16,547 nucleotides of DNA from positions 1 to 16,547 of the forward strand of contig DXDC01000275.1 in the NCBI GenBank assembly GCA_019115685.1, in the 5' to 3' direction. The stretch comes from Candidatus Agrococcus pullicola (lineage in GTDB: Bacteria > Actinomycetota > Actinomycetes > Actinomycetales > Microbacteriaceae). Below are positions 3,295-16,126 of this stretch, piece by piece (the first letter of the stretch is position 1; each line of letters begins with the position of its first letter). The notes beneath the pieces are model-generated. The model was not told the origin of the DNA. It saw only the letters and a program-made list of their open reading frames with translations, and did not search any database. The position numbers were made by a program, and so were the translations under genes.

Positions 3295-3594
3295 CTAGAT
3301 CGGCTGATTCATCAGCTCTTCGAGAAGACGGGCGTCGCGCTTGGGGCGCCGCGCTCCGGCGAGGAACGGCACAATGAGCGCTACGACGGCACCCGCGCCG
3401 ATCGAGATGAGCCAGATGCCCGCCTGCTCGCTGTACATATCGGCCCAGAACAGCAGTCCGCTCCATACGAGCCCCGTAACGGCAGCACAGACGCCCGCCG
3501 TCAGTGCAACGCCGTAGGTTTCACGGTTCGGGAGTATGTAGCGCAGGATCCAGCCCAGGCTCGCTGCGATCACCATCGCGACGAGGAGGCCCAT
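3295..3594 (-). CDS. Small three-helix membrane protein of unknown function
   Basis: A 99-residue integral membrane protein. Hydrophobic segments at about 2-20 (LLVAMVIAASLGWILRYIL), 28-50 (VALTAGVCAAVTGLVWSGLLFW) and 58-80 (AGIWLISIGAGAVVALIVPFL) predict three transmembrane helices. A short charged C-terminal tail (ARRPKRDARLLEELMNQPI) probably faces the cytoplasm by the positive-inside rule. Its ATG overlaps the TGA of the upstream DUF3107 gene (TGATG), so the two are translationally coupled and form an operon. I recognise no domain with a known role. The position between DUF3107 and the ferritin-fold gene corresponds to where other actinobacteria keep an uncharacterised membrane protein. 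Confidence 0.82.
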   Translation of the reverse strand: MGLLVAMVIAASLGWILRYILPNRETYGVALTAGVCAAVTGLVWSGLLFWADMYSEQAGIWLISIGAGAVVALIVPFLAGARRPKRDARLLEELMNQPI

Positions 3595-3812
3595 CAGGCC
3601 ACGAATCCGATCTTGCGGCCCGCTTCGTCGCCGATTTCGACGTACGCGATCTGGGTGGAAGGAACCAGGTAGCGACGGCCCTTCGAATCGTCGATCTTGA
3701 GCACCGACCCTCCCAAGGCAGCTTCCACGAGCTGCTCGACTTCATCGCGAGTCTGCGAGGAGTCGAATGCGATCTCCCGCGCGGTGTCCTTGATGCCAAT
3801 GCGAATGTCCAT
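3594..3812 (-). CDS. DUF3107 family protein
   Basis: A 72-residue soluble protein starting MDIRIGIKDTAREIAFD. It matches the DUF3107 family (M. tuberculosis TB9.4/Rv3208A type), small alpha/beta proteins of unknown function that are near-universal in actinobacteria. Visible family features are the N-terminal beta strand (IRIGIKDTAREIAF), the acidic helix (QTRDEVEQLVEAALG) and the GRRYLVPSTQIAYVEIG block ending in a short C-terminus. The ATG is preceded by GGAG at 5 nt spacing, a good ribosome binding site. The gene is divergent from adnA with 138 bp between starts, and leads a two-gene operon with the membrane protein downstream. The mutual arrangement with adnAB, rhlE and the ferritin-fold gene agrees with mycobacterial synteny. 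Confidence 0.9.
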   Translation of the reverse strand: MDIRIGIKDTAREIAFDSSQTRDEVEQLVEAALGGSVLKIDDSKGRRYLVPSTQIAYVEIGDEAGRKIGFVA

Positions 3813-3867: not shown

Positions 3868-3890
3868 CTGTCGGTGGTGCGGTTTAGTGT
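3868..3890 (+). promoter_or_regulatory. Candidate RecA-independent DNA-damage promoter (RecA-NDp / PafBC type) of adnAB
   Basis: The sequence reads CTGTCGGTG, then exactly 8 nt, then TAGTGT. This matches the mycobacterial RecA-NDp consensus as I recall it, tTGTCRGTG-N8-TAnnnT, at every strongly conserved position; only the weak first T is C. That promoter class is activated by the PafBC regulator after DNA damage, independently of LexA/RecA. It lies on the coding strand of adnA, about 60 bp upstream of its start, which would leave a leader of roughly 55 nt. The match and spacing are seen; PafBC control is inferred. Confidence 0.7.
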
Positions 3891-3908
3891 TGTTCGAAGG
3901 GTTCTAGA

Positions 3909-3929
3909 AGTTCAGGAATCCCGTGAACT
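3909..3929. repeat. Short inverted repeat in the adnA leader
   Basis: Perfect 6-bp arms AGTTCA (3909-3914) and TGAACT (3924-3929) are separated by 9 bp. They fall in the predicted 5' leader of adnA, just upstream of its ribosome binding site. It could be an operator or a weak hairpin. It does not fit the LexA box, whose GAAC and GTTC half-sites are in the opposite orientation. Confidence 0.3.
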
Positions 3930-3940
3930 GCGGAGAGAGA

Positions 3941-3944
3941 GGAG
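3941..3944 (+). promoter_or_regulatory. Ribosome binding site deciding the TTG start of adnA
   Basis: GGAG within a purine-rich run (3931-3944) lies 6 nt before the TTG at 3951. This is the best Shine-Dalgarno in the region and supports the TTG as the initiation codon. Confidence 0.65.
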
Positions 3945-3950
3945 TGGGGC

Positions 3951-6900
3951 TTGAGTAGCGTCCCGGAAGTCGATCGGTTCGGCACAACGAGCTTTGATCT
4001 CGACGCCGATCAGCGTGCTGCGATCCGTCAGGAGCCCGGAACCCGCAGGCTGATTCTTGGAGGGCCGGGAACCGGCAAGAGCACCGCTGCTGCCGAGGCG
4101 GTGGCTCAGTATCTCGAATCCGGCGGTGATGTCCGGCGAGTTATCGCACTCACCGCGTCGCGTTCTACGGCGACCGCACTGCGCGACAGGATCGCCGAAC
4201 GTGCGCAGCGCACATCGGCGGGGCCGCTGGCGAGGTCGATTGCTTCGCTCGCGCACCTGATCGTCGGCGAGCATTCGATGAGAGCGCATCGGGAACCGCC
4301 GGTGCTGCTCTCCGGCGGCGATGAGGACGCTCACTGGCAGAGATTCCTCTCATCGGATGCTCGGAGCGCGGATGGCATCGTATGGCCCGCTCCCATCGAC
4401 GCGACGGTGCGTGCACTGCCCGAGTTCCGTGCCGAGCTGCGGGAGTTCGTGGCAAGACTGACCGAGCGCGGCGAAACTCCGGAATCCTTCGCTGCGGCAG
4501 CCGAGTCGACAGAGCATGCGGATCTCTGGGGAGCTGTCGCGAGGGCCTGGGCCGGGTTTGAAGCCGCAATCGCGACCGATTCCCACAGAGCTCCGACCGT
4601 CACGCTGAGCACGATCGTTCGCGAGGCGACTCGCGTGAGCAGACTCTCGCCGGAACCCCGGTACGATCTCGTCGTCGTCGATGATGTGCAAGAATTCACG
4701 GCAGGCGGCATCGAACTCGTCCTCAGCCTCACGGGCGGCGAGGTTGCGGAGGACCCGCGCAGACGTTCGCGGGCATCGGTGCTGATGTTCGGAAGTTCCG
4801 ACACGACCGCGGGTGTCTTTCGCGGTGCTCAGCCTGATGTCGCGCGTACTGCTGCTCTGCAGTATTTCGACCGTGCAGAACTCGGTCAGCAGCACCGTTT
4901 CGGCTCTGCGATCGCGAGCGATTACGCAAGCGTCGTCGAGACGATCGGCGTATCGGGGTCGGCGGGTGAGCGGCGCTGGGATATCGAAGAATCACTGGAT
5001 TCATGCTCGGAGGCGGTCACGGTGGCTTCGGCAGCCGAGCAGACGAGGCTGATCGCGAGTACGCTTCGGCAACGGAACCTCATCGACGGAATCCCGTGGT
5101 CGGAGCTTGCGGTCATCACCCGCACATCCGGTGCAGTCGGCCAACTCGCGGAAGCACTCGCGGCGCTCGACGTCCCGGTGCATAAAGCGGGAGCACTGCA
5201 GTGGCGGCACTCGGCGGCGGTGCGACCTCTGATCTTGTTGATCGCTGTCGCTTCCGGGCAGAGGAGTCTGAGCGCCACAGACATCCATTCACTGCTGACC
5301 TCACCGTACTTCGATCTCGACTCGGTGGCCTGGCGACGTCTGCGTCGCGCAGTCCGAGCCGAGCAAGCGCGTCCGGGAGCGACACCGTCGAGCACCGTCG
5401 ACGAGTGGCTCGTGACAGCTGCACAGCAAGGAGTCGTGCCGCACGATGCAGAAGATTTCGAACCGGTGCGCATGCTCGCAGGCGTCCTGCAACGCGTCGA
5501 GCGCTATGCGAATGCGGCGCCCGGCCTCGCTCTTTGGGAGGCTTGGGACGCTCTCGGGCGAGCGGATGCGTGGCGCGCGACTGCGACGGGTGAAGGGCCG
5601 GCCCGCCGCGCCGCCAACGAGCACCTCGATGCCGTTCTCGCATTGTTCAGGCAGGCGGACACGTTCAGCGAACGCTTTCCCGATCGCACCGTCACCGACT
5701 TTCTGACGGAGTGGTTCGCATCCGCGCTCGATGATGATTCTCTCGTGGCGGGTGCGAACGGCGAGGCCGTTACGATCGGCACGCCGCTGTCGTTTGTTTC
5801 CATGGAATACGACACCGTGGTCGTGGCGGGTGTCGAAGAGTCCGTGTGGCCGAACCTGAAGCTGCGCTCATCGCTACTGCGCGCGGAGCACTTCGTGCGA
5901 GGAGCCTCCGACCGCAGGGAGGTTCGGCAGGACGAGGCCCGGCTGTTCGCGCTCGCGATCTCACGAGCGAAACGTCGGCTCCTCGTCATTGCGGAAGCAT
6001 CGGAGAACGCGGCGCCGTCGTCCTTCCAAGAGCTGCTGCGACCGGTGGCCGCAACCGACCCGGGGCCGATGTCCGTTGCTGCACTGGTCTCCGACAATCG
6101 CCGAACGCTGACTTCTGCGAGTTCGAGTGAGGAAGAGAAGGAGAGAGCCGCGAGCGTGCTCAAGTATCTCGCCGATCGCGGCGTGCAGGCCGCCCATCCG
6201 CAAGGCTGGTGGGGGATGCTGGAGCCCTCCACCACGACGCCGATCGGCGCGACGAGTGAGAAGCCGAGAATTTCCCCGTCGAAGATCGAATCGTTCAATC
6301 AGTGCCAGGTGCAGTGGGCGGTCGGCAATCTCGCCGGCGATGCGGTCGGGAATGCCCGTGCAATCGGCAACATCGTGCATTCGGCCGTCGAACTCGCGTC
6401 GACGTTTACGGCCGAAGAGATGATGCAGCTCGTCGATCGCGAGTGGAATGGGCTTGAGTTCGAGACCGAATGGGAAGCAGCACGGAATCACGACGATATC
6501 GGCCGCATGGTCAGCAGGCTTGAAGAGTACTTCGAGCACATTCGCGACGAGGGATTCCACGTGCATCGCCAGCTGCGGGAGGCGAGGATCGAAGTGGATC
6601 TCGGCGAAGCGATTCTGTCGGGCTACATCGACTGGATCGAGCGCTCAGCAGGGGGGATTCGGATCTGCGACCTGAAAACCGGCAGCGTGATTTCGCAGCA
6701 GGCGGCTGCCGAACATCCGCAGCTGGGTGCGTACCAGCTGGCCGCGAGTCGGGGCGGAATAGTCGACGGTGACAGCGTGGCAGGCGAGAGCGTACTCGGC
6801 GCGAGGCTCGTCTATCCGAAGCAGGAGGGCGCGACCGTGAAACCCATGATCCGTGAACAGGCGCCGCTGGGGCGCGAGGAGCTCGAGACATTCGCGCAGA

Positions 6901-7028
6901 GCGTTGTCGCGGCGGCGCAGGCCATGGCCGGCTCGGTCTTCACCGCAAGCCCCGAGCAGCACTGCTTCTCGTCGAACGGCTTCGTGCCGGATTGCCGTGT
7001 GCACGTTACGAGGCAGGTGACCGAGTAA
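3951..7028 (+). CDS. adnA: AdnA subunit of the AdnAB helicase-nuclease (UvrD-like motor plus RecB-family nuclease)
   Basis: A 1025-residue subunit of the heterodimeric motor-nuclease that resects double-strand DNA breaks for homologous recombination. The N-terminal SF1A motor has Walker A GGPGTGKS (37-44) but altered later motifs. Motif II is VVDDVQE (242-248) where active enzymes have DE-x-QD; motif III is FGSSDTTAGVFRGA (280-293) instead of VGDPNQSIYGWRGA; motif V is TPLSFVSMEYD (611-621) without the AKGLE core. Motif VI, ARLFALAISRAKRR (663-676), keeps its arginine. The C-terminal nuclease (about 772-1025) has a complete RecB-type set: IVHSAVE with H810, GYIDWIE with D894, CDLKTG with D907 and K909, and QLGAYQLA with Q924 and Y928. 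Three cysteines (785, 1005, 1015) recall the AddB Fe-S arrangement, but a fourth is not evident. The gene begins at TTG and overlaps adnB (TAATG). A degenerate motor beside an intact one fits the AdnA/AdnB division of labour. Confidence 0.93.
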   Translation: MSSVPEVDRFGTTSFDLDADQRAAIRQEPGTRRLILGGPGTGKSTAAAEAVAQYLESGGDVRRVIALTASRSTATALRDRIAERAQRTSAGPLARSIASLAHLIVGEHSMRAHREPPVLLSGGDEDAHWQRFLSSDARSADGIVWPAPIDATVRALPEFRAELREFVARLTERGETPESFAAAAESTEHADLWGAVARAWAGFEAAIATDSHRAPTVTLSTIVREATRVSRLSPEPRYDLVVVDDVQEFTAGGIELVLSLTGGEVAEDPRRRSRASVLMFGSSDTTAGVFRGAQPDVARTAALQYFDRAELGQQHRFGSAIASDYASVVETIGVSGSAGERRWDIEESLDSCSEAVTVASAAEQTRLIASTLRQRNLIDGIPWSELAVITRTSGAVGQLAEALAALDVPVHKAGALQWRHSAAVRPLILLIAVASGQRSLSATDIHSLLTSPYFDLDSVAWRRLRRAVRAEQARPGATPSSTVDEWLVTAAQQGVVPHDAEDFEPVRMLAGVLQRVERYANAAPGLALWEAWDALGRADAWRATATGEGPARRAANEHLDAVLALFRQADTFSERFPDRTVTDFLTEWFASALDDDSLVAGANGEAVTIGTPLSFVSMEYDTVVVAGVEESVWPNLKLRSSLLRAEHFVRGASDRREVRQDEARLFALAISRAKRRLLVIAEASENAAPSSFQELLRPVAATDPGPMSVAALVSDNRRTLTSASSSEEEKERAASVLKYLADRGVQAAHPQGWWGMLEPSTTTPIGATSEKPRISPSKIESFNQCQVQWAVGNLAGDAVGNARAIGNIVHSAVELASTFTAEEMMQLVDREWNGLEFETEWEAARNHDDIGRMVSRLEEYFEHIRDEGFHVHRQLREARIEVDLGEAILSGYIDWIERSAGGIRICDLKTGSVISQQAAAEHPQLGAYQLAASRGGIVDGDSVAGESVLGARLVYPKQEGATVKPMIREQAPLGREELETFAQSVVAAAQAMAGSVFTASPEQHCFSSNGFVPDCRVHVTRQVTE

Positions 7029-10000
7029 TGCTGTCGCCGCAGGAGATCACGGAACGAATGAACGCGGTGCTGCCCGCCGATGAGCAGCTGTTCCCTCCCA
7101 GTGAAGAGCAGTTCCCCGTTGTGACCGCAGCCGCAGATCGCCCAGCGCTCGTCGTCGCCGGCGCAGGGAGCGGTAAGACCGAAACGATGGCCAATAGAAC
7201 GCTCTGGTTGGTCGCCAACGGATCGGTCAGCCCTGAGCACGTACTCGGGCTCACATTCACCAGGAAAGCAGCGGGAGAACTTTCGAACCGATTCCGGGAG
7301 CGATTGACGACGCTCGAGGCGGCCGGTCTTTCCGGATTCGGAGCAGAGCGCATCCCCCCGACCGTCTCCACGTACAACTCGTTCGCGAACGAGATGTTCA
7401 GGGAATTCGCCAACTTGATCGGCCGGAGCCCCGATGCCGAGGTGCTCACCGAGACTGCATCGCGCGTCTTGGCACGAGATGTCGTCCTCGCGAGCACGGA
7501 CGATCGCCTGGCGGCTTTCGGCAGCGTGAACAGTGTCGTGAAGGCGCTCATAGAGTTGGCTGCCGGGATGGGAGACAATCTCTTGACGACCGATCAGCTC
7601 AGAGATTACCCGGAGGCGTTCGTTCAGGATCTCAATCGGATTCTGCTGCAGGACTCGAAGCGGAAGTCCGCTGTCGAGGCGACTCAGGGGCTGTTGGAGA
7701 ACGCGCAGAAGTTCGAAGCGTTGCTCGACCTCGTCGATTCCTTCGAGGATCGGAAGCGCGAGCGCAACGTCGTCACGTTCAGCGATCAGGTTCGTTTGGC
7801 GATCGAAGTGATCGAGCGGGTACCGAGCGTGGCGAGAGAGATGCGCGACCGCTACCGCGTCATTCTCCTCGACGAGTACCAGGACACCTCGGTCATGCAG
7901 GTGCGGCTGCTGTCGGCGCTGTTCTCGGGCGCCGGTGTGATGGCCGTCGGCGACCCCAATCAGTCCATTTACGGTTGGCGCGGTGCCGCGGCCGGCACCC
8001 TGGAGCGGTTCCTCGACGAATTCGCCGGCGACAGTTCGGATAGGTTCGAGCTTTCGACTTCCTGGCGCAACGATGCGGCGATTCTGGCGGTCGCCAACCG
8101 GATTGCACGCGCCGGGGACGACGTGTTGCAGCTGACCGAACGCGCCGACGCAGGCGAGGGCCTCGTCGATCGCAGGTTCTACGAACTGCTCACGGATGAA
8201 GCAGAAGCGCTCGCCGCGTGGTTCTCGCAGCACGTGACGAACAGCGAGGCGCCTCCGACTGCGGCTATGCTGATGCGTTCGCGCACATGGCTTCGTGCGT
8301 ATACGCGAGCGCTCGATGCCGAGGGAGTGGACTACACGATTATCGGCGGAGGAGGGCTGCTGCAACAGCCGGCAATCGTCGACATCATCGCCATCCTGCG
8401 GGTCCTGGGGCGCCCGGACGACGGGCAGTCGCTGCTGCGCATCTTGGCTTCCGCGCGATGGCGAATAGGTGCTGCGGACATGGCAGCGCTAGTGAAGTTC
8501 TCACGCGCGCTGGCGGAAAAGGATGCTCCACCGGGAACCGAAGCGCAGTCGATGAGAACGACACCCGAGCAGCTGGCTTCCGTCGTCGATGCACTCGATT
8601 CCCTGCACCTCGCCGAGCACCTGGACCTCACCACGAAAGAGTTCTCCGAAGCCGGACTCAACCGCATGCTTTCGTTAGCCGCTGAATTGAGAGCACTCCG
8701 AGCGGTTCGGCACCGTCCGGCGGCAGAGCTGATTCGGACAGTAGTCAGGTCAACAGGGCTCGACATCGAATTGGCCGCGAATGAGCACGCCGACCAGCGC
8801 GTCCTGGACACCTTCCTGGACGAGGTACTGCTCATGCAGAGAACGGAACCGGTGTTCGGACTCGAGGAGTTGCTCGCGTGGGTGGACATCGCTGAGCAGG
8901 ACGACCGCATGGAATTGCCGCCACCAGAACCGACACCCGGCCGAGTGCAGATCATGACGGTGCACGGGGCGAAGGGGCTCGAGTGGGACGTCGTCGCGAT
9001 CCCCGCGCTCAGCATCGGTTCATTCCCGGCGACATCGCGCGATCAATCGGCTGGGCTCACACCGTCAACGGTGCCGCACCAGTTCCGCGGGGACCGGGCC
9101 GCCCTGCAGATCTTCGACTCCGCGGCGGCTGCAACTCCCGACGATCTGGAAGCTGCGCTCAAGGAGTACAGGGCAGCCAACGAGCAACGCCGACTCGCAG
9201 AAGAACGCCGCATCGCATACGTGGGGGTCACCCGTGCACGGAGAAAGCTGTGGATGTCCGGCTCAGCGCTCGCACCGGAGCAGACACGTGCCAAGAAGCC
9301 CAGCGAGTTCCTCACAGACGCCGGGCCCCTAGAACGCATCGCCGCTCTTCACCGGGGCGAATCCGGTGCCGGGGAGTCAATCGTCGAGTGGCCGCCGCGG
9401 CCGTTCGGTGGCCGGGTCGAAGCGATTCGAGACGCGGAGCGTCGCTTCGCGGAGGCCGCACCGATCAACGATTCCGGGCTGACTGACCACTTGGACGCAT
9501 TGCTTGCCGAGCGCGCGACAGAAACGGTCGCGCCGCTGAAGCGCGTGGGGGCGTCCAAACTGCTCGAATGGATTGATTCGCCGACGTTGGCAGAGCATGA
9601 GCGCACCCGGCCCATGCCGTCTCGGCGGAGTGCTCGAGCGCTGCTGGGTACCGTGTTTCACCAGTGGACCGAAAGCAGAATCGCCGGTGGATACGACGAA
9701 ACGCTTCCCGGCTTCGAACTCGATGATCCCGGGGAGCGCTCTGCCGACCTGGAGAAGCTGCAGGCAAGCTACCTGCGGGCAAGTCGTTATGCGCGCCTCG
9801 AGCTTTCGGGAGGCGTTGCGGAGCAGCAGATCGATCTCCGGATCGCGGGCATCACGATCTCGTGCAAGATCGACGCCGTGTTCGCTTCCGGTGACCGCCT
9901 GCTGATCGTCGATTGGAAGATCGGGAGAGCGCCGAGCGGTCGAAACCTCGAACGACGATCCCGGCAGCTTTCGCTCTACCGGATCGCACTGAGCGAACTC

Positions 10001-10147
10001 ACGGGCACCCCGCTCGAACGCATCGATGCCGAGTTCTTCTTCGCCGAAGACGGTGTAACGGTTCCGCTAGAGCACCCGATGTCGAGGAACGAACTCGAGA
10101 ATCTCATCCTGGCCGCAAAGGGCAGCGACTCCGACGCACAGCGCTAG
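7028..10147 (+). CDS. adnB: AdnB subunit of the AdnAB helicase-nuclease (lead motor plus nuclease)
   Basis: A 1039-residue partner of AdnA and the probable main translocating motor. All UvrD-type motifs are canonical: AGAGSGKT (44-51), LTFTRKAA (75-82), DEYQD (282-286), VGDPNQSIYGWRGA (307-320), STSWRND (343-349), TVHGAKGLEWD (644-654) and AEERRIAYVGVTRAR (724-738). The C-terminal nuclease, about 835-1039, has GTVFHQW (H878), CKIDAV (D949), VDWKIG (D962, K964) and RQLSLYRIA (Q980, Y984). This is the full RecB-family metal-binding and catalytic set, so both subunits should cut DNA. The ATG at 7028 shares one base with the adnA stop (TAATG), with a purine stretch upstream. A longer in-frame extension to 6992 lacks support. 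The gene ends 7 nt from the convergent APH-fold gene. It is co-transcribed with adnA, so the damage promoter should drive both. Confidence 0.95.
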   Translation: MLSPQEITERMNAVLPADEQLFPPSEEQFPVVTAAADRPALVVAGAGSGKTETMANRTLWLVANGSVSPEHVLGLTFTRKAAGELSNRFRERLTTLEAAGLSGFGAERIPPTVSTYNSFANEMFREFANLIGRSPDAEVLTETASRVLARDVVLASTDDRLAAFGSVNSVVKALIELAAGMGDNLLTTDQLRDYPEAFVQDLNRILLQDSKRKSAVEATQGLLENAQKFEALLDLVDSFEDRKRERNVVTFSDQVRLAIEVIERVPSVAREMRDRYRVILLDEYQDTSVMQVRLLSALFSGAGVMAVGDPNQSIYGWRGAAAGTLERFLDEFAGDSSDRFELSTSWRNDAAILAVANRIARAGDDVLQLTERADAGEGLVDRRFYELLTDEAEALAAWFSQHVTNSEAPPTAAMLMRSRTWLRAYTRALDAEGVDYTIIGGGGLLQQPAIVDIIAILRVLGRPDDGQSLLRILASARWRIGAADMAALVKFSRALAEKDAPPGTEAQSMRTTPEQLASVVDALDSLHLAEHLDLTTKEFSEAGLNRMLSLAAELRALRAVRHRPAAELIRTVVRSTGLDIELAANEHADQRVLDTFLDEVLLMQRTEPVFGLEELLAWVDIAEQDDRMELPPPEPTPGRVQIMTVHGAKGLEWDVVAIPALSIGSFPATSRDQSAGLTPSTVPHQFRGDRAALQIFDSAAAATPDDLEAALKEYRAANEQRRLAEERRIAYVGVTRARRKLWMSGSALAPEQTRAKKPSEFLTDAGPLERIAALHRGESGAGESIVEWPPRPFGGRVEAIRDAERRFAEAAPINDSGLTDHLDALLAERATETVAPLKRVGASKLLEWIDSPTLAEHERTRPMPSRRSARALLGTVFHQWTESRIAGGYDETLPGFELDDPGERSADLEKLQASYLRASRYARLELSGGVAEQQIDLRIAGITISCKIDAVFASGDRLLIVDWKIGRAPSGRNLERRSRQLSLYRIALSELTGTPLERIDAEFFFAEDGVTVPLEHPMSRNELENLILAAKGSDSDAQR

Positions 10148-14692: not shown

Positions 14693-16126
14693 TCACTCGG
14701 TCTTGGGTTCGCCCTCTTGGCTGTCGTCCGGGGCTTCGTCACCCTCGTCGCCATCGGATGAGCCGCTGGCGCTGTCGGTGACATCGCTGCTCTCGTGACT
14801 CTCCTCCGCAGCGTCACCGGCCTCCTCATCGAACAGTTGACGAAGCGCGATGTCGATCTCGTCGAGATCGGTTGATTCGCCCTTGAGTTGAGCGATAATG
14901 CGGGACGGGTCGTCGATATCTTCTGCGGTGGGAACCAGGTCGAAGCTCTCCCACAGGCTGTCGCGCTTCTCGGCGCCCACTTCAGCGGTGATCCGCTGCC
15001 AGAACTCGCTCGCTTCGCGCAGCCGTCTGGGCCGAATCTCGAGACCGACGAGTGTGGAAAGCGCCTTCTCGGCAGGACCACCGGTGGCTCGGCGTCGTCG
15101 CACAGCTTCCGCGATCGCCGCTTGCTTCGGCAGTCGGGCCGCTGCCTGCTGCGTTACGCAGTCGACCCAGCCTTCGATGAGCGCGAGCGTGGTTTCGAGC
15201 GATGCGAGCGCTTCCTCCTGCTCCCTTGTGCGGGGAGGAATCAGCGATCCGTTTCGCAGGAGCTCTTGGATCTGCTCCGGGTTCGACGGGTCTACCTGCA
15301 TGGCGAGATCGTCCAGCGCCCGCACATCCACGTGAATTCCCTCGGCGTAGCTGCGAACCTCGCTCATCACTTCGAGGCGCAGCCACTTTGCGTGATGGAA
15401 GAGCCGCGCGTGGGCAAGCTCACGCAGGGCCAACCAGATTCGGGTCTGGTCGTCTGGAACTTCAAGCCCATCGGTGAGTTGCGGGAGATTGGCCGTGATG
15501 ACCGCGGCCCGGTCGTCGAGAAGGGGGAAACCGATATCGCCACCGGAGAGCACCTCTCCCGCCAGTTGACCGACGACCTGGCCGAGCTGCACCGCGAACA
15601 GCGTTCCACCGACAGAGCGCAGCAGCCGGCCGGCCCCCTGCACCATGTCGGCTTCCGATTCGGGCGTCATTTCGCTCATGGCGTCCGTCAGCGCTTTCGC
15701 GATGCTCGCTGCGACCGGTTCGGACATCTCTTGCCAAACGGGGAACGTCGCTTCCGCCCACTGCTGGCGCGAGAGGTGTTCGATACGGTCGACCGTTCCC
15801 AGCTGGGTCTGCTCATCGAGCCACAGCGCCGCGAGATGCGCCGCCTGCTGCGTCGCCTCGCGATCCTCGGCACTGACAGAGCCGGGATTCTGCTGGACGA
15901 CTCGCTGCGCTTGCTTCACACCCGCAGACCAGTCGATCTCCTCACTCGGATTCGAAAGCGCCGACTGCAGGTGCTGCATGAGCCCTGCGAATGCATCGGC
16001 GTTGCCGCCCTGCATGCCAGCTGCATTAGCGAGCGATTGGAGATCGAGCTCGCCCTCGCCCCCGAGCATCCGCTGGATCATTTCGCGGAGTTCCTCGGCT
16101 GGATCCTTCTCGTGCTCATCGGCCAT
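14693..16126 (-). CDS. DUF2342 (Zincin_2) family 'zinc-dependent metalloprotease' homologue
   Basis: A 477-residue soluble protein of the actinobacterial DUF2342 family (Rv3195-like). The N-terminal part holds LREMIQRMLGG (13-23) and the family block WSAGVKQAQRVVQ. This is followed by FPVWQEMSEPVAASIAKAL (128-146), a Gly-rich segment GGTLFAVQLGQVVGQLAGEV (173-192) and SGGDIGFPLL (194-203). The zincin helix reads ALRELAHARLFHHAKWLRLEV (233-253). Where a metallopeptidase has HExxH this protein has R235-E-L-A-H239, so the first zinc ligand is lost. EGWVDCVTQQAAARLP (318-333) is the later conserved block. The last 44 residues are strongly acidic and disordered. I infer a non-proteolytic or altered metal-binding role, although the same change may be normal in this subfamily. 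The ATG is probably leaderless (TAGCGT 6 nt upstream). The gene is divergent from the YlbL-type gene. Confidence 0.86.
   Translation of the reverse strand: MADEHEKDPAEELREMIQRMLGGEGELDLQSLANAAGMQGGNADAFAGLMQHLQSALSNPSEEIDWSAGVKQAQRVVQQNPGSVSAEDREATQQAAHLAALWLDEQTQLGTVDRIEHLSRQQWAEATFPVWQEMSEPVAASIAKALTDAMSEMTPESEADMVQGAGRLLRSVGGTLFAVQLGQVVGQLAGEVLSGGDIGFPLLDDRAAVITANLPQLTDGLEVPDDQTRIWLALRELAHARLFHHAKWLRLEVMSEVRSYAEGIHVDVRALDDLAMQVDPSNPEQIQELLRNGSLIPPRTREQEEALASLETTLALIEGWVDCVTQQAAARLPKQAAIAEAVRRRRATGGPAEKALSTLVGLEIRPRRLREASEFWQRITAEVGAEKRDSLWESFDLVPTAEDIDDPSRIIAQLKGESTDLDEIDIALRQLFDEEAGDAAEESHESSDVTDSASGSSDGDEGDEAPDDSQEGEPKTE

Follow-up and report, generated by a model that had tools for sequence, protein, structure and literature searches.

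The adnAB locus and its upstream motif

The analyzed window, a stretch of 16,547 nucleotides from Candidatus Agrococcus pullicola (Microbacteriaceae), belongs to a 2.98 Mb draft assembly of 488 contigs that is 78.7% complete. It carries two overlapping genes whose products match, by sequence, the solved AdnA chain 6ppj_A (3.1e-70) and the solved AdnB chain 6ppu_B (1.4e-137), preceded by an intergenic region that separates adnA from a divergently oriented gene. The features of this region are as follows:

3594-3812, minus strand: divergent DUF3107 gene of 72 codons (domain match), from which the motif points away
3869-3876, plus strand: TGTCGGTG, the -26 element, an exact match, recognized by PafB according to the PafBC model
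3877-3884, plus strand: spacer GTGCGGTT of 8 bases, a length favoured over 4-7 and 9-12 in 123 genomes
3885-3890, plus strand: TAGTGT, the -10 hexamer, whose T1, A2 and T6 are conserved in family sites
3897-3898, plus strand: projected transcription start, from the distance between start codon and hexamer in relatives
3897-3950, plus strand: projected 5' leader of ~54 bases, from the projected start to the TTG
3940-3944, plus strand: AGGAG, a likely ribosome-binding site (sequence read)
3951-7028, plus strand: adnA, open reading frame of 1025 aa with a TTG start, UvrD helicase and PDDEXK_1 domains
6992-10147, plus strand: adnB, open reading frame of 1051 aa overlapping adnA, assigned by its domains and chain match

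The encoded AdnA is strongly divergent, with a mean identity of 34% to 29 Microbacteriaceae members that are mostly ~50-58% identical among themselves, and the AdnA of a member of the same genus (L017) is likewise low, at 40% identity. The possibility of a foreign contig in the draft was considered and rejected: a window gene at 14693-16123 is 92% and 76% identical to its counterparts in two congeners and AdnA is 84% identical to that of the first of these, and the contig therefore belongs to the genus.

Read directly from the plus strand, positions 3868-3890 consist of C-TGTCGGTG-GTGCGGTT-TAGTGT. The original prediction held that this stretch conforms to the RecA-NDp consensus with an exact 8-nt spacer, and a pattern scan bore this out, since positions 3869-3890 match TGTCRGTG-N8-TANNNT exactly, as the single such match on either strand of the window and one that is present in 0 of 200 dinucleotide shuffles. 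Its predicted placement on the adnA strand was also upheld, the motif being located between the divergent DUF3107 gene and adnA and oriented towards the latter, with 60 bases between the hexamer and the adnA TTG. Furthermore, the same positions fit TGTCGG-N10-TA-N3-T, the form in which the PafBC motif of M. tuberculosis has been reported (PMC8151990).

Conservation and start-codon phasing in the Microbacteriaceae

Matches to the adnA query were obtained in 150 of 150 family genomes, those of genomes G081 and G144 being too weak for adnA, and upstream regions were examined in 123 (30 adnA loci and 93 stretches), while the alignments of the other 27 start deep within the gene or no match is listed near its start. 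Of these 123 genomes, 96 have the pattern TGTCGGNG-N8-TANNNT upstream of adnA with no more than one mismatch (57 exact and 39 with one mismatch), the remaining 27 having at least two (17 with two, 8 with three and 2 with four). The antisense control on the same regions returned no exact and four one-mismatch sites and the reversed control none of either kind, while spacers of 4-7 and 9-12 bases gave no exact and 0-5 one-mismatch sites, as against 57 and 39 for a spacer of 8. The family-wide comparison of adnA upstream regions, by which the original prediction was to be judged, thus speaks in its favour (96/123 versus 0-5 in the controls). Within 111 family sites, T1, G2, T3, C4 and G6 of the -26 element are each retained in 94-99%, and T1, A2 and T6 of the hexamer in 99-100%, both sets of percentages being inflated by the preselection of these sites at two mismatches or fewer.

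Closer to the window genome, the adnA motif is exact in 12 of 16 congeners, with one mismatch in two further congeners (hence at most one in 14/16), two mismatches in one and three in another. The closest congener (AdnA 84% identical) keeps both elements while its flanks have changed, although position 8 of the -26 element is T. Among named loci, some of which are from other families, 66 of 80 have a site with at most one mismatch.

The position of the start codon was analyzed in 111 sites, i.e., the 113 family sites with at most two mismatches minus two distant ones. In 95 of these the nearest in-frame start codon lies at +6 (46 sites) or +7 (49 sites) from the hexamer, and for five more no start is listed, the alignment beginning close to the motif. 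ATG or GTG occurs at +6 in 50/111 and at +7 in 56/111, whereas a shifted control gives ~4.5 at each position. This phasing provides independent evidence for the hexamer as a working -10 element, and it appears to be the pattern expected of a leaderless mRNA in most relatives. The congeners have the start at +6 in 14 of 16 cases, and a fifteenth (L386) has it at +7 as judged by eye.

The window genome differs in this respect, as an in-frame TGA at 3924-3926, 33 bases past the hexamer, excludes a leaderless adnA start, and the sole start is the TTG at +60. A 5' leader is consequently projected here that would be absent from most of the Microbacteriaceae, which is a less expected arrangement. The closest congener has a TTG at +56 and also one at +2 with no intervening stop, so that a leader is likely in this genome, yet not forced.

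A different -10 element in other families

A further 123 genomes were sampled from other families of the Actinomycetes, of which 102 were examined upstream of adnA. The TA form of the motif yielded no exact and 24 one-mismatch sites in these ~102 genomes, and because the -10 half differs outside the Microbacteriaceae, a TAnnnT search undercounts the sites. When only the outer bases of the hexamer were specified (TGTCGGNG-N8-TNNNNT), 51/102 genomes had a site with at most one mismatch, as opposed to none in the antisense and reversed controls, and an in-frame ATG or GTG follows at +6/+7 in 36 of the 51. At the second hexamer base, these 51 sites have G (34), C (11) or T (6) but never A, and 50 of them have TGn before the hexamer, whereas the same free pattern in the Microbacteriaceae gives 98 of 123 genomes with a site, of which 96 have A at this base and none has TGn (0/98). 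The form found outside the family would represent a weak -10 aided by a TG extension.

Outside the family the spacer-5 control is high, with 33/102 genomes at one mismatch or fewer, and the corresponding counts for spacers of 4, 6, 7, 9, 10, 11 and 12 bases are 8, 0, 1, 6, 14, 8 and 3 of 102. The spacer-5 excess is probably due to the TGn step, which is situated three bases ahead of the hexamer. Sites with at most one mismatch occur in 20 of the 32 other families, and no adnA site was found at this threshold in 12, including f17 (10 genomes) and f19 (8 genomes). In f17 and f19, PafC is present although the adnA site was not found.

PafBC, its candidate targets and probable control of adnAB

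The source genome possesses adjacent pafB and pafC genes that overlap by a few bases, as would be anticipated if the original prediction is correct. Their products match solved PafBC structures (6sj9, an Arthrobacter fusion; 7p5x, 9fnd and 9fne) by sequence, PafB matching 9fnd_X at 6.6e-30 and PafC matching 6sj9_A at 2.5e-14, although the two are separate genes rather than a fusion as in Arthrobacter. Identity to the proteins of two congeners is 41-42% for PafB and 37-39% for PafC. Of 150 family genomes, 147 have a match to the PafC HTH (above the curated cut-off in 144), as do 125 of 128 genomes of the class.

Loss of PafBC was considered for nine genomes with a poor PF19187 match (G005, G015, G065, G081, G088 and G144 of the family; G174, G209 and G217 of the class). 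A search for WYL domains led to its rejection in G005 (a frame of 702 residues containing two WYL domains), G088 (a 714-residue WYL frame, representing a diverged fused protein), G065 and G217 (one WYL match each) and G174 (two neighbouring matches), and returned zero matches only in G015, G081, G144 and G209. The adnA motif is absent from G088 and is kept in G065 and G174, both of which are weak for PafC. G015 has neither WYL proteins nor the adnA motif, and as the only such genome it makes for a weak test of co-loss, while in G081 and G144 a good match to adnA is missing as well. G209, a 91% complete draft, has no WYL match, yet retains TGTCGGAC-N8-TTCGAT.

The motif is not confined to adnA. 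Matches to a strict form, TGTCGGYG-N8-TASCGT, number 69 across 40 family genomes, versus one in the reversed control, and 27 of the 40 have at least one. Downstream of 30 returned strict loci, 14 recombination or repair genes were identified, namely recA (2), uvrB (2), sbcD (3), adnA (3), recG, dinB, radA and a gene for an AlkZ-like glycosylase; three further loci precede genes for a SprT-like protein (L152), a helicase and an RNase-H-like protein, and the remaining downstream genes encode unrelated Pfam families (8) or products without any (5). At two loci from two genera (L155 and L158), the strict motif is followed by genes for small, mutually similar proteins (MTTLDF..., 80-86 residues) that have no Pfam family.

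In the source genome itself, TGTCRGNG-N8-TANNNT occurs at 10 sites, compared to two for the reversed pattern. These precede recA, radA, pcrA, clpX, adnA, pyrG and genes for a DrmD-like helicase and a MerR-like regulator (the latter named by eye and from a weak HspR match), while the other two sites lie in stretches without a convincing gene. The presence of the motif at recA itself (L135) implies that the two damage pathways are linked and not separate. The clpX site (L002, contig C245) is an exact TGTCGGTG-N8-TACGCT located ~22-30 bases upstream of the gene, which suggests that the ClpX protease subunit may belong to the damage regulon. At another locus (L382, contig C119), TGTCGGAG-N8-TATCGT lies upstream of a gene for a DISARM DrmD-like SNF2 helicase, a partial match below the family cut-off, and a link between phage defence and the damage response through this site is possible.

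Taken together, these data indicate that the adnA-adnB operon is probably driven by a RecA-NDp/PafBC-type promoter at 3869-3890 (probability roughly 0.9), a reading based on sequence comparison. PafB has been reported to bind the -26 motif, PafC to bind domain 4 of SigA and single-stranded DNA to activate PafBC (PMC11804915), and we infer that this mycobacterial mode of working also applies in the present genome. DNA damage would then generate single-stranded DNA to be bound by the WYL domains of PafBC, upon which active PafBC and RNA polymerase-SigA would assemble at the 3869-3890 promoter, where PafB would recognize TGTCGG around -26 and the docking of PafC onto domain 4 of SigA would substitute for the usual -35 contact. 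Transcription from near 3897 would yield an adnAB mRNA with the projected leader of ~54 bases, and the resection of breaks by AdnAB could in turn produce more single-stranded DNA, thereby closing a positive loop. More tentative, at somewhat worse than even odds, is the broader proposal of two mutually exclusive -10 designs, in which a PafBC-driven and mostly leaderless adnAB mRNA would start from a lineage-specific, deliberately weak -10 element, with single-stranded DNA feeding back onto the gene for its own production machinery.

It is improbable, if the strongest of the competing explanations, that TGTCGG in a real and conserved adnA promoter is recognized not by PafBC but by a different activator, for example another WYL regulator. 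The genome has seven WYL-domain matches, only two of which belong to the pafB-pafC pair, and G209 keeps a TGTCGG site without any WYL match; on the other hand, element and spacing alike are those of the PafBC-tied motif of M. tuberculosis (PMC8151990). Moreover, the sites precede repair genes, and PafC is matched in nearly all family genomes.

With regard to LexA, we take TCGAACNNNNGTTCGA to be the box pattern, which is uncalibrated for the Microbacteriaceae, and no match to it with at most three mismatches begins between 3222 and 4650, so that the original claim that a LexA box is absent holds at the promoter. Across the whole window such weak matches number 28, compared to a shuffle mean of 12.3, with none of 200 shuffles reaching 28; this excess lies away from the adnA promoter and perhaps reflects codon usage. 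That LexA/SOS controls adnAB, by itself or jointly with PafBC, is accordingly very unlikely: the window-wide excess and the dual control described for some mycobacterial genes, including recA (PMC8223512), lend it some colour, but no match begins in the promoter region. The likelihood that an ordinary intergenic region resembles the motif by chance is next to negligible, for although the pattern is at chance level in the window when two mismatches are allowed (3 versus 2.79 expected) and the exact mycobacterial form has just four matches in the draft genome (versus none reversed), such a coincidence is contradicted by the family-wide conservation relative to controls, the +6/+7 phasing and the 14 of 16 congeners.

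A PafBC-type promoter of adnAB is thus favoured by motif, spacing, strand, conservation, the presence of pafBC, the motif at other repair genes and the lack of a LexA box at the promoter; its occurrence outside the mycobacteria, which the original prediction pointed out, is in itself not new. RecA-NDp promoters occur in Streptomyces (PMC5087735, PMC9411070) and are said to reach other Actinobacteria (PMC8223512), while AdnAB has been named within the mycobacterial PafBC regulon (PMC8223512) and is PafBC-upregulated in M. tuberculosis (PMC8151990). RecA-NDp promoters and PafBC control of AdnAB are therefore already known, and the present promoter would extend them to the Microbacteriaceae; among the open-licence papers listed, titles and abstract openings contained nothing on a PafBC promoter of adnAB in this family, or on a leaderless or extended -10 form. 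The present promoter resembles those of mycobacteria in its -26 element, in the 10 bases from TGTCGG to TA and in its adnAB target (PMC8151990, PMC8223512), and differs in that it belongs to another family, in which the mRNA of relatives is for the most part seemingly leaderless while the window genome has a leader, AGGAG and TTG. The Streptomyces promoters of recA and SCO6735 represent the same class, before DNA-damage genes and outside the mycobacteria, and adnA is unnamed in the available part of that report (PMC5087735).

The finding would place AdnAB under PafBC control in one more family besides the mycobacteria, and as the transcription start is predicted to within a base or two, the claim is cheaply testable. 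In S. venezuelae, an initial search is reported to have found the M. smegmatis motif not conserved, and a RecA/LexA-independent response is stated to remain to be shown in Streptomyces (PMC9380542); the occurrence of the -26 element upstream of adnA in half of the examined genomes outside the Microbacteriaceae (51/102) bears on that statement. Finally, the swapped -10 element may be regarded as a natural experiment on what SigA requires once an activator stands in for the -35 contact.
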